Assembly: GCA_945874535.1 (NCBI GenBank)
Contig: CAMCGZ010000019.1
Coordinates: 1 to 48,644, forward strand
Origin: Bdellovibrio sp. ZAP7
Lineage (GTDB): Bacteria; Bdellovibrionota; UBA1018; CAIMNF01
DNA: 48,644 nucleotides
Reading direction: 5' to 3'
Below are positions 32,347 to 36,871 of the stretch, one piece after another. The notes under the pieces are model-generated. The model was not told the DNA's origin. It did not search any database and saw only the letters and a program-made list of their open reading frames with translations. Both the position numbers and the translations under genes were made by a program. The stretch's first letter is position 1. The number at the start of each line of letters is the position of its first letter.

Positions 32347-32672
32347 TCACCATGACCCAACAAGCCATCCAGGAGATCAAAAGGATTCGTGAAGCCGATG
32401 TATCCCAGAACTCTGCTCACCTGAGAGTGCGTGTAGTAGGCGGTGGCTGTTCCGGGATGAGTTACAAACTCGACTTCGAAACCGTGCCTCCAGTCGGGTC
32501 GGATCGGATTTTCGAACAGGAGGGTGTGGCACTTGTGATCGACCAGAAGTCCCTCTTGTACCTGAGCGGGACTGAGCTCGACTTTTCGGGTGGACTGAAC
32601 GGAAAGGGTTTTGTATTCAGTAACCCGAACGCCAAACGGACCTGCGGTTGCGGGTCCAGTTTTTCCACCTGA
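32343..32672 (+). CDS. A-type iron-sulfur carrier protein (IscA/ErpA/SufA family)
   Basis: The 109-residue protein has the full A-type carrier motif: Cys36 in GGGCSGM and the C-terminal Cys101-Gly-Cys103 pair (CGCGSSF). These three cysteines bind a Fe-S cluster or iron between subunits. It delivers clusters to target proteins after assembly. Whether it is IscA, SufA or ErpA cannot be decided from the sequence; the neighbours iscS and an adrenodoxin-type ferredoxin favour an Isc-like context. Its start overlaps the iscS stop and the ferredoxin gene follows 14 bases after its stop. Confidence 0.95.
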   Translation: MITMTQQAIQEIKRIREADVSQNSAHLRVRVVGGGCSGMSYKLDFETVPPVGSDRIFEQEGVALVIDQKSLLYLSGTELDFSGGLNGKGFVFSNPNAKRTCGCGSSFST

Positions 32673-32686
32673 AGAGGAAGAATCCC

Positions 32687-32980
32687 ATGCCCAAGATCAA
32701 GTTCATGCCCTCCGGAATTGAAGTTCAAGCGAGGGACGGGGAAGCCCTGCTCGATATCGCCCTGGCGAATGATGTTTCCATTCAGCACGCCTGCGGCGGC
32801 TTCTGTGCCTGCACCACTTGCCACTGTGAAATCCTCGAAGGTGAATCGAATCTTCTTCCACCCGATGAGGACGAGCTTGAGCGTCTCGGAGTACTCGATC
32901 AGCGCACGCCTCGCTCCCGGTTGGCCTGTCAGTCCAAGGTGAAGGGTGATGTGACCGTTCGCGTAGTCAACCCTGAGTAG
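32687..32980 (+). CDS. fdx: Adrenodoxin-type 2Fe-2S ferredoxin
   Basis: The 97-residue protein holds the cysteine pattern C-x5-C-x2-C...C as Cys36, Cys42, Cys45 and Cys81, the spacing of adrenodoxin/Isc ferredoxins. Two extra cysteines (40 and 47) fall within the loop. It supplies electrons for cluster assembly on the Isc scaffold. Start ATG 32687 is fixed by AGAGGAAG at 32673-32680, six bases before it; the in-frame extension to 32648 is the end of the carrier gene. Its 3' end overlaps the convergent serpin gene by 14 bases, so no terminator separates them. Confidence 0.94.
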   Translation: MPKIKFMPSGIEVQARDGEALLDIALANDVSIQHACGGFCACTTCHCEILEGESNLLPPDEDELERLGVLDQRTPRSRLACQSKVKGDVTVRVVNPE

Positions 32981-34172
32981 GGTCGAAGACTTTTCCGATG
33001 AAGTAGATTTCTCCGCTTTCGGGATTCATGAGCAAGTAGACAAAGGGCTCATCCGCGTAAAATGGAACCGCAGAGCCCTCAAACAGGGCTGAGCGTTCGA
33101 GAGTTACCGCTGTTGCGGCAGCCGCTTCAGTTCCTTCTTCCCGGACATCGACTGAGATGGCCTGGATCACCTCGGTTGCGGTCAAATCACCTGACTTGAG
33201 GACCTTTGGAAAAGCCCCTTTCGCAAAGAGGTCTCCAAATCCGGCGGTTTTCATCAGGGGTTGGAGACTTTTTTTCAAGCTCACCGAGAATCGCGGCAGC
33301 ACCAGATCCACCTGACGGTCTTTCCATTTCCCCTTCATTTCCTTCAGGGAGTCGGACCCGATCCGTTCTTCGGTGGAGGTCAGGTCGAAGCGCTTCTTCG
33401 GCAGACCGATCAGCATCACCAATGGGGTGTCGAGGTAGGGCAATTCGACCCAGCGGGAAACCTGGTCTTCCTGATACCGGAACCTGGCCTTCTGTTGCAT
33501 CAGCGGCACCACTTTTGAGGCATGGGGAGACGGTTGGAACCTTCCCTGGATCGTCCGTTCTTTAGCAAAAGGGCGGCTCCAGAGCGCCTTCAAGTAGAGA
33601 GTATTCAGAACCAATGCGGAAACGCCGGGCTTGAGCTGGTCCATCAATTGCTGAATCTTGCCGGAGGTCGCCTTTTCCACCCAGGCATTCAATTCCTTCA
33701 GCTGGAGCCGTTGAACTTCGGCACGGAGTGGGGTGATGCCTTTCTTGAAATCCGGGTGGATCTGCTTCGGATCCTTGAGCCAGACGGAATTGGTGATCGA
33801 AAACTCGAAACTCTTCTTGTTCTTCAGGGTTTCATCGAGGAGCAGGAACTCGGCGGATGCGATCGGGCTTGGAGTCTTGTTGATTCCGAACAGGGCCTCG
33901 ATCGAGGATTTCGCGTTCATCGAAGCGCCGGGATGCAGGAGCCCGAAGGCCAGCTTGAGGCTGAGCGGCGAGAGAGCCACATTCTTCGGATCCTTCGAGA
34001 GCAGCCGGTACAAATCGAACAAGGATTGAGAAGGCGCGACCACCTTGTTCCCGTCGGAATCGGCTGCAGAAAGAATCTCGGGAGCGGCCTTGGCAGCCGT
34101 TTCGGGAGTCCGGTTGCAGGAAATGAGGAAGGAACAGAGCAGAAGCGGGGCGCAAGCAATGGAGGGTTTCAT
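32967..34172 (-). CDS. Serpin-family protease inhibitor, predicted lipoprotein
   Basis: The 401-residue protein has a lipobox L-I-S-C ending at Cys19. A complete serpin fold follows: 'VALSPLSLKLAFGLLHPGA', 'NSVWLK', 'ALVLNTLYLKALWSRPF', 'WVELPYLDTPLVMLIGLPKK', and the terminal 'PFVYLLMNPESGEIYFIGKVFDP'. The reactive-loop hinge EEGTEAAAAT (345-354) is the consensus of inhibitory serpins, with small residues that allow loop insertion. By standard 17-residue spacing P1 would be Ser361, with Arg360 beside it; the loop after P1 is about four residues longer than in alpha-1-antitrypsin. So the target could be a trypsin-like or an elastase-like protease. It is the last gene of the long tdk-opp unit, 19 bases after oppC, with AGGAGG close to its ATG. 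Confidence 0.93.
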   Translation of the reverse strand: MKPSIACAPLLLCSFLISCNRTPETAAKAAPEILSAADSDGNKVVAPSQSLFDLYRLLSKDPKNVALSPLSLKLAFGLLHPGASMNAKSSIEALFGINKTPSPIASAEFLLLDETLKNKKSFEFSITNSVWLKDPKQIHPDFKKGITPLRAEVQRLQLKELNAWVEKATSGKIQQLMDQLKPGVSALVLNTLYLKALWSRPFAKERTIQGRFQPSPHASKVVPLMQQKARFRYQEDQVSRWVELPYLDTPLVMLIGLPKKRFDLTSTEERIGSDSLKEMKGKWKDRQVDLVLPRFSVSLKKSLQPLMKTAGFGDLFAKGAFPKVLKSGDLTATEVIQAISVDVREEGTEAAAATAVTLERSALFEGSAVPFYADEPFVYLLMNPESGEIYFIGKVFDPTQG

Positions 34173-34191
34173 GCCCTCCTAGAATAGCACG

Positions 34192-35028
34192 TTACTGCCC
34201 GGACTGAGAGCCGATCGAACTCTTCGGGTCGAGAATGTCCCGGAGTGAATCCCCCAGGAAATGAAAGGCGATCATCGTGATGAAGAGCGCCATTCCGGGA
34301 AAAATCATCAGGTGCGGGTAGCTCTGGATGCCCCGGAACCCCTCGTTGGCGAGGGTGCCCCAGCTGGAATAGGGCGGTTGGAGTCCGAGCCCGACAAACG
34401 ACAAAAAACTCTCGGTCAGGATGTTGTTCGGAATTTGAAAGGTGAGCGAGACAATCATCGGACCGAGGAGATTCGGAACGATGTGACGGAACAGGATACG
34501 CCCGTGGGTCAGGCCGATGGCCCGGCCTGCCTCCACATAGGGAAGCTCGCGGGCCTGGAGCACCAACGCGCGGACTAATCGGGCCTGGGTCACCCAGGTG
34601 GTCATCCCGATTGCCAGGAAAATGCCTGTGAAGCCCCTGCCCAGAAGGAGGGTCAGCAGGATGGCGAGCAGCAACATCGGGAAAATATAAAATAGATCCA
34701 CGACTCCCATCAGGACCCGGTCCCAGGTTCCTCCGAAGTATCCCGCCACTGCACCGGTTGCTGTTCCGAGCACCAGTGCGAAAATCGCTGTGCAAAATCC
34801 GACCGCAAGTGAAAGACGTGCCCCGAACAGGATCCGGCTGAAGAGATCCCGCCCCAGCACATCCGTACCCATCCAGAATCCCCGGACAGGGGGCGAGAGA
34901 TTCGGACCGACCGATACGGCGTCGTAGGCAAAAGGTGCGACCCAGTCGGCGAACAGTGCCAGAATGCACAGAATGAGCAGGGCTCCGGCGCTCCAGATGA
35001 ACCTCTTGTCTTTCATGAATCTTCCCAT
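34192..35028 (-). CDS. oppC: Peptide ABC transporter permease (OppC type)
   Basis: The protein of about 278 residues has an N-terminal membrane segment, an OppC-N extracytoplasmic stretch with FWMGTDVLGRDLFSRI, and five further helices. The cytoplasmic EAA loop (YVEAGRAIGLTHGRILFRHIVPN) contacts the ATPase. It ends with the family's GDSLRDILDPKS. Start candidates are ATG 35031, ATG 35028 (TGATG overlap with the oppB stop) and ATG 35016 with GGGAAG upstream; 35028 is used here. Together with oppB it forms the inner-membrane channel for oligopeptides. No ATPase genes (oppD/oppF) and no binding protein gene lie in this operon; binding-protein genes occur at 12895 and 46950. Confidence 0.93.
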   Translation of the reverse strand: MGRFMKDKRFIWSAGALLILCILALFADWVAPFAYDAVSVGPNLSPPVRGFWMGTDVLGRDLFSRILFGARLSLAVGFCTAIFALVLGTATGAVAGYFGGTWDRVLMGVVDLFYIFPMLLLAILLTLLLGRGFTGIFLAIGMTTWVTQARLVRALVLQARELPYVEAGRAIGLTHGRILFRHIVPNLLGPMIVSLTFQIPNNILTESFLSFVGLGLQPPYSSWGTLANEGFRGIQSYPHLMIFPGMALFITMIAFHFLGDSLRDILDPKSSIGSQSGQ

Positions 35029-35954
35029 CATTTCACATTCTCCAGGCGCACCCGGGGATCGATGATTCCATAGGTGAGATCGACGAACAGATTGCAAAGG
35101 ATCAGGATCATTCCGTAAGTCAGGGTCATTCCCATGACCAAGGGATAGTCCCGATCAATCACCGACGTCACAAAATACTGACCGAGCCCCGGAATCTGGA
35201 AGATGGTTTCCACCACATAGCTTCCGGTGATCAGGGAAGCGGTGATCGGTCCGAGCAGGGTCACCACCGGAATGAGGGCATTTCGAAGAGCGTGTTTCAA
35301 AATCACCGTGCGCTCATCCAGTCCCTTGCTGAAGGCCGTCCGGATGTAGTCGGCATGAAGGACTTCGAGCAATGTGGTGCGAGTCATCCTCGCAATGATG
35401 GCCAGAGGCCGGAGTGACAGTGTCACGATCGGCAAGACCATCGAGAGCTTGTCCTCCCAAAGTGCGGGGGGCAGCCAGCCGAGCCAGTTCGAGAAGAGCA
35501 GTACGAGAAGGGTGGCAATCAGGTAAGTGGGCAAGGTGATCCCCGAAACCGCGATGAACATCGCCGAGAAGTCGAGCCAGGTTCCCCGCTTCCAAGCGGA
35601 GACGATTCCCAGCAACAGCCCGATGACCAAGGAGATCAGCAGCGCGATCCCGCCCAGTTGGAATGACGCGGGTAAGGCCTCCCGGATGATCTCGGTGACA
35701 GGAGTTCCGACATAATGGAAGGACTCACGTAGATCACCGCGCAAGAGATCGGCGGACCAGACTAGGAACTGTTTCGGCAAGGGCTGGTTCAGACCGTACT
35801 TGGCCTCGATGTTGGCTTGGATTTCGGCAGGCCAGACTTTCTCCCCATCGAAGGGTCCTCCCGGAGCCAGGCGAAGCAGGAAGAAGGTGGTCACCACCAG
35901 GAAGGTGAGTGTCGCCAGGGTCTGGATCATGCGTTTGAACAGGTAGGTTGCCAT
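35028..35954 (-). CDS. oppB: Peptide ABC transporter permease (OppB type)
   Basis: The 308-residue protein is a typical OppB/DppB: MATYLFKRMIQTLATL as first helix, LRLAPGGPFDGE, YGLNQPLPKQF and WSADLLRGDL. Its EAA loop is LEVLHADYIRTAFSKGLDERTVILKHALRNA, and its end VDLTYGIIDPRVRL is the diagnostic OppB tail. The start is ATG 35954 with GAGGAA upstream and overlaps the DUF429 gene stop as TAATG; longer in-frame sequence lies in that gene. It pairs with OppC. The coupling to a DUF429-like and a sugar kinase gene is unusual for an opp locus. Confidence 0.95.
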   Translation of the reverse strand: MATYLFKRMIQTLATLTFLVVTTFFLLRLAPGGPFDGEKVWPAEIQANIEAKYGLNQPLPKQFLVWSADLLRGDLRESFHYVGTPVTEIIREALPASFQLGGIALLISLVIGLLLGIVSAWKRGTWLDFSAMFIAVSGITLPTYLIATLLVLLFSNWLGWLPPALWEDKLSMVLPIVTLSLRPLAIIARMTRTTLLEVLHADYIRTAFSKGLDERTVILKHALRNALIPVVTLLGPITASLITGSYVVETIFQIPGLGQYFVTSVIDRDYPLVMGMTLTYGMILILCNLFVDLTYGIIDPRVRLENVK

Positions 35955-36871
35955 TATTCCTCTTCTTCCTCTTCCGGCGCATAGTGGGATTCCAGATCCA
36001 GTAGCGAGGACTTGGGATGGCAGATCCATCCAGAATCGACCGGAAACCCTTTTGGTGGAGAGACGCACTCCCCGCGATCCTGAAGCAGTACAGTGTAGGC
36101 CGAAAGAAACGCATCGAAGGCATTCAAGTTCTGGGTCAGCTTCTTGAGATCCCGATCATAAATGAAAATGTCGAGACTCTCGCACATGCGCTCGATCAGT
36201 GTCTGCCTCGCTTGGGCACCGGTTTCGATCTGACGGTGCTGGAGAATCGTCCGCTGGGGGATCTTCAGGTGGGGCATGAGTAGCGCCACCGAGAGCTTGG
36301 GAAGGACCTCGAGCAACTCGTAGTGACGGAGATGCATTCTCAGAAAATGCATCCGGGCAGAAAGAGGGGCGCGGTTTCCTCCGAGGGTCTCGTCGATCTC
36401 AAAGCGGATCTTCTCGGGCAATCGTCCGAGGACTTCGTTTTTAAGATAGAGCTCCACCGGTCGTTGGGTGTAGGGGGTGAAGTATTCCTTCAACCGCATG
36501 TTGCGTCTCGAAGCGGTTTTCTTGCGGGGACGGGCAAGCGAGCTCCGTACTGCATGATTCCGCATCCACTTCACCTCGGGTACAGTGCAAGCGGCGGGCA
36601 TCGGGCAGGACTTCCGGGTACAAGTGATGCAGGGCGGGAGCGTGACCGGAACATTGACGCCGATTTTCAGATCCGGATGTCCGTCCGCATGATCGAGTAG
36701 GGTTTGAACCAGGACTTCGTCCGAACTGGCGGTTTCATCGGCACCGATACCGGGGTGCACATCGAGGACAAAAACTTTTTTCTCTTTCGGGTAATACTCG
36801 AGGACGGCCAAAGTGGTTTTGGCATTCTTCGCACCCGAAAGATCGAGACCCAGGTAACGCTTCTGGTTCAT
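35954..36871 (-). CDS. DUF429-like predicted RNase H-fold protein with a four-cysteine cluster
   Basis: The 305-residue protein begins YLGLDLSGAKN (Asp10), has IGVNVPVTLPPC in the middle and NAFDAFLSAYTVLLQ near residue 265. This arrangement recalls DUF429 proteins, thought to be RNase H-fold nucleases. Where the family usually has an acidic residue in 'iDaP' this one has Asn73, so activity is doubtful. An insert carries Cys81, Cys84, Cys89 and Cys95 (C-x2-C-x4-C-x5-C), a likely zinc or iron-sulfur site. The end is a run of Glu residues. It is fully embedded in an operon: ATGA overlap with the GHMP kinase upstream and TAATG with oppB downstream. The family call is tentative and the function unknown. 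Confidence 0.62.
   Translation of the reverse strand: MNQKRYLGLDLSGAKNAKTTLAVLEYYPKEKKVFVLDVHPGIGADETASSDEVLVQTLLDHADGHPDLKIGVNVPVTLPPCITCTRKSCPMPAACTVPEVKWMRNHAVRSSLARPRKKTASRRNMRLKEYFTPYTQRPVELYLKNEVLGRLPEKIRFEIDETLGGNRAPLSARMHFLRMHLRHYELLEVLPKLSVALLMPHLKIPQRTILQHRQIETGAQARQTLIERMCESLDIFIYDRDLKKLTQNLNAFDAFLSAYTVLLQDRGECVSPPKGFPVDSGWICHPKSSLLDLESHYAPEEEEEE

Follow-up and report, generated by a model that had tools for sequence, protein, structure and literature searches.

The question raised by this locus is whether a relative of Bdellovibrio carries a working inhibitory serpin on its cell envelope and, if so, which proteases that serpin would trap. The window, a stretch of 48,644 nucleotides that makes up one whole contig, holds the single serpin copy found in a 2.42-Mb genome of 39 contigs. 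A protein search for relatives in named genomes yielded only two loci, both in environmental metagenome-assembled genomes, one of them from a pond, and the host is a freshwater Bdellovibrio relative. The gene and the parts of its product lie as follows.

32967..34172, minus strand: serpin gene, 401 codons plus stop, with the ATG at 34172-34170
34116..34172, minus strand: lipoprotein signal peptide, residues 1-19, with the lipobox LISC (L16-I17-S18-C19)
34032..34115, minus strand: probable tether, residues 20-47, none of the 28 positions invariant, pLDDT below 50 for residues 15-44
33108..33140, minus strand: hinge, residues 345-355 (EEGTEAAAATA), with 8 of its 11 columns unchanged across the genus
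33066..33107, minus strand: reactive-centre loop, residues 356-369, no invariant column, with the likely scissile bond Arg360-Ser361 at 33095-33090

An earlier note had called a serpin at 32967-34172 without stating the strand. The open reading frame exactly fills these coordinates on the minus strand, and its product of 401 residues bore out the call, as the Pfam search revealed a single family, Serpin (PF00079; MEROPS I4), with an E-value of 1.3e-69 over residues 52-398. This match scored 235.7 bits against a cut-off of 27 and was full-length, spanning profile positions 8-370 of 370, while an NCBIfam search of the protein returned no family. The opposite-strand frame at 33522-34187 was taken to be a shadow ORF because the conserved frame is that of the serpin. 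A recent foreign origin was also rejected on base composition, since the GC content (0.553) and GC3 (0.687) of the serpin gene match those of its neighbours.

The lipobox that had been read at residues 16-19 was present, and its Cys19 was invariant in all nine genus orthologues, each of which carries Lys or Arg at position 2 followed by a hydrophobic stretch. The protein is thus predicted from its N-terminus to be probably lipid-anchored to the cell envelope. The residue following the lipobox cysteine (+2) was Asn or Thr across the orthologues and never Asp; in E. coli, a residue other than Asp at this position leads to the outer membrane. An outer-membrane location is predicted for the serpin from its Asn at +2. 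Residues 20-47 probably form a variable, disordered tether between the anchor and the serpin domain.

The inhibitory hinge motif of serpins, P17-P9, has been given as ExGTEAAAA (PMC8233489, PMC10090351), and EEGTEAAAA at residues 345-353 fits this motif with its small residues. The whole segment E345-E346-G347-T348-E349-A350-A351-A352-A353-T354 was found at the residues where it had first been noticed, and it was nearly invariant across the genus orthologues. In the alignment of the nine orthologues, the mean entropy of the hinge (residues 345-355) was 0.36 bits, compared with 1.34 bits for the core. The protein is a real serpin and, by appearance, probably a working one of the inhibitory type.

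The reactive-centre loop behaved very differently from the hinge. Residue 360 was Arg, Arg, Arg, Lys, Ser, Thr, Thr, Ala and Leu across the nine orthologues, two of which need a one-residue loop gap, so that their residue 360 depends on where the gap is placed; residue 361 was Ser, Thr or Gly in all nine. Residue 360 was the most variable position in the segment 340-378 and the twelfth of the 341 ungapped core columns, equal variability being also found at several positions outside the loop. Because residue 360 varies most while only Ser, Thr or Gly occurs at 361, the two are the likely P1 and P1' residues, which places the likely scissile bond at Arg360-Ser361. This comparison agrees with the earlier assignment of the scissile region to these residues, but canonical spacing does not: strict P17-P1 counting from Glu345 puts P1 at Ser361, and Arg360 as P1 requires a loop that is one residue short. 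Counted from Gly347 in the hinge to Phe377 in the "PF" motif, the loop comprised 31 residues, compared with 26 in conserpin. The corresponding distance is 27 residues in alpha-1-antitrypsin, in line with the previous estimate of a loop about four residues longer. Such a length is nonetheless ordinary for bacteria, as the loop of chloropin (8gxv) also has 31 residues.

The AlphaFold2 model, built from 27 aligned serpins, displayed a serpin fold with a mean pLDDT of 83.7 and a pTM of 0.80. Structure prediction of the loop had been proposed as a check; residues 351-365 of the model, like the linker at residues 15-44, had pLDDT values below 50, these two segments being its low-confidence parts. 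A Foldseek search with the model against the PDB gave 415 matches at E <= 0.001, and the 50 listed were all serpins or serpin complexes; the predicted structure was closest to native miropin (5ncs), followed by Serpina3n, conserpin, antithrombin and chloropin, all of them inhibitory serpins. The shutter and breach residues Ser68, Ser71, Asn190, Trp198 and Glu345 were retained, and the Lys290 position was conservatively changed to Arg294. The shutter His334 position was occupied by Gln337 in all nine genus serpins, and Gln was also found there in 4 of 18 other serpins from the phylum. Additionally, residues 153-163, between strand s1A and helix F, were seemingly several residues shorter in the genus alignment than in conserpin or chloropin.

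The neighbouring genes are arranged as follows.

34173..34191, minus strand: gap of 19 bp between oppC and the serpin gene, containing an AGGAGG motif that lies two bases ahead of the ATG
34192..35097, minus strand: OppC-like ABC transporter permease (PF00528 and PF12911), co-directional with the serpin gene and directly upstream of it
35028..36068, minus strand: OppB-like ABC transporter permease (PF00528), as the listed ORF, the true start probably lying inside it
32648..32980, plus strand: ferredoxin-like gene (fdx), convergent with the serpin gene, identified by eye from sequence and synteny

The fdx and serpin genes overlap by 14 bp at their 3' ends, and oppC and the serpin gene possibly form an operon. 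Upstream of oppB, positions 35954-36871 on the minus strand encode a 305-residue protein with no Pfam match, which shares 95-96% identity with its counterparts in the two closest relatives. We found oppC 5' of the serpin gene and in the same direction in nine of nine serpin-bearing genomes, and oppB was also upstream wherever the contig reached that far, the contig of G008 ending inside oppC. On the other side, fdx, iscA and iscS converge on the serpin gene, with another gene in between in G002; this is a 1412-codon ORF (L015:10428-14666) with a lipoprotein-like N-terminus of its own. A replacement serpin was looked for in the oppC-fdx interval of G004, G007 and G012, the last from the sister genus, but unrelated ORFs were present there instead. 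With gene content that differs between genomes (L041:6395-12287, L040:9688-12208 and L039:5395-6165), the interval resembles an exchange slot.

Within the genus, the serpin was found in 9 of 12 genomes, including that of the window, and always at this locus. In G005, one of the genomes with no detected serpin, the best oppC match had 37% identity and was not a clear orthologue. In a tree with other serpins of the phylum, the nine genus serpins formed one group with full support, and the simplest reading is a single origin at the locus followed by losses. The serpin was 80% identical to that of the closest relative, G009, compared with 95% for oppC and 97% for pyrG, and its identity fell to 34-44% in six of the eight genus relatives. 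Its dN against G009 (0.128) was the highest of the 14 genes compared, while its whole-gene dN/dS was 0.087, with dS near saturation; this whole-gene comparison gave no sign of positive selection. The serpin is fast-evolving yet constrained, under purifying selection. Since eight further genomes of the genus carry an orthologue at this site and the reading frame is under such selection, the gene is far beyond what chance would produce.

Bacterial serpins had been described as uncommon in the earlier note, and membrane-tethered ones as rarer still. The first statement holds in a relative sense, as 48 of the 291 genomes sampled across the phylum contained a serpin. As for the second, the other phylum serpins read outside the genus mostly had an ordinary signal peptide, but at least three of them (L003, L062 and L071) carried a clear lipobox, and L054, L056 and L072 a borderline one. 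Because of these lipoboxes, and because some prokaryotic serpins have been classed as membrane anchored (PMC8233489), tethering is not unique to this genus.

Other features of the genome concern the way of life of the host. Nine Flagellin_N matches, one of them weak, were present on contigs C11, C16, C3, C17 and C1, and six to nine were present in every genome of the genus, a large set for a 2.4-Mb genome. Type II/IV pilus-type ATPases were also encoded. The flagellin set and these ATPases fit a Bdellovibrio-like life, although they do not prove it.

Which proteases might such a serpin meet? Predicted from P1 alone, the residue at position 360 would direct the serpin to trypsin-like proteases in four species, to elastase-like proteases in four and to chymotrypsin-like proteases in one. 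The proposal of a shield against trypsin-like proteases therefore suits the four species with Arg or Lys at this position but not the five others, which have Ser, Thr, Ala or Leu. From these sequences, target preference looks to shift between species while the anchor and the hinge stay fixed. A bolder and less likely reading is that a tethered serpin at a fixed locus has been re-aimed repeatedly within this one genus, tracking the proteases of prey, grazers or the surroundings of a host. In that case its P1 residue would switch among trypsin-like, elastase-like and chymotrypsin-like specificities against a constant anchor and hinge.

The serpin might instead protect the cell from itself, neutralising its own secreted S1 or subtilisin-like S8 proteases that leak back or misfire in the envelope. 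Keeping an inhibitor alongside one's own proteases is an established strategy, and the genome of the window contains nine S1 (PF00089) and seven S8 (PF00082) matches. However, S1 and S8 proteases were found in all 13 genomes, whether serpin-bearing or not, and serpin presence did not track the number of either; the three genus members without a detected serpin had 15, 12 and 8 S1 matches, compared with 5-13 in the nine with it. In 60 S1 candidates, HtrA/DegP-sized frames being left out, we also read residue 189, which lies six positions ahead of the active Ser. Of the five candidates inspected in the genome of the window, none was an Asp189 trypsin with a GDSGG motif: the two with GDSGG had Gly or Ser at position 189, two had GNSGS with Asp, and one was without a readable motif. 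The sole canonical Asp189-type protease seen was in G010, whose serpin has Leu360, and Arg or Lys at position 360 was not seen to go together with an Asp189 trypsin of the same genome. The idea that the serpin guards against a trypsin made by the cell itself is therefore unsupported, and self-protection as a whole appears rather doubtful, the genome's own S8 proteases being possible targets. By elimination, foreign proteases are the better guess.

It is unlikely that the serpin, instead of shielding the surface, faces the periplasm as a housekeeping inhibitor linked to peptide uptake and co-expressed with OppBC. Its position directly downstream of oppC in each of the nine serpin-bearing genomes, only 19 bp away in the window, would agree with such a role, but the unrelated genes in the same interval of G004, G007 and G012 indicate that the site may simply be an insertion slot, and free change of target class by the loop is unexpected for an inhibitor of one housekeeping protease. 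A non-inhibitory serpin, kept as a carrier, a chaperone, a structural lipoprotein or the like, is very improbable. In its favour, non-inhibitory serpins do exist, Gln337 replaces the shutter His throughout the genus and no other gene compared with G009 has a dN as high; but the small-residue hinge, which is usually lost in non-inhibitory serpins, is almost invariant here at P17-P7 despite the 34-44% overall identity in six of eight relatives.

What the gene quite likely encodes is an inhibitory serpin that sits in the cell envelope as a lipoprotein. Once the protein is exported, cleavage by a signal peptidase ahead of Cys19 would leave a lipidated cysteine at the N-terminus, from which the serpin would hang on some 28 residues of flexible linker. 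Any protease that cut the exposed loop, with Arg360-Ser361 as the likeliest site, would become trapped as the small-residue hinge inserts into beta-sheet A, leaving the protease covalently bound and distorted. The envelope would in this way be shielded from trypsin-like proteases, and in sister species this trap would be directed at proteases of other types.

The role of bacterial serpins has been described as enigmatic (PMC8233489). The protein described here is in itself a normal serpin that adds a member to the known bacterial serpins, and what makes the locus modestly interesting is that P1 has been swapped naturally while the gene has kept its place. Nine sister species that share this anchored serpin and its locus, but differ in the residue that chooses the target, constitute a ready comparative set, which is suited to asking which protease each serpin traps and whether that protease is the cell's own or foreign.

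Among known systems, the best sequence match in the PDB was conserpin (5cdx; E-value of 7e-40), which differs in being an engineered, synthetic consensus protein with a loop five residues shorter; to our knowledge, no lipobox is to be expected in it. The human C1-inhibitor and alpha-2-antiplasmin have Arg at P1, with one residue fewer in the part of the loop that precedes it, and the likeness is in this spacing only, as both are secreted plasma proteins. Chloropin from Chlorobium limicola (8gxv) is an environmental bacterial serpin with the same 31-residue loop and an Arg-Ser bond, but its Arg occupies the canonical P1 spacing, whereas the Arg of the present serpin comes one residue earlier. 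Miropin inhibits broadly via several loop bonds. Found in the host-associated oral bacterium Tannerella forsythia, miropin shares only 24% identity with the serpin described here, but it was the best structural match and is also a bacterial inhibitory serpin. Its authors are reported to have suggested that miropin is surface-exposed, with a fraction in the periplasm (PMC4604654).
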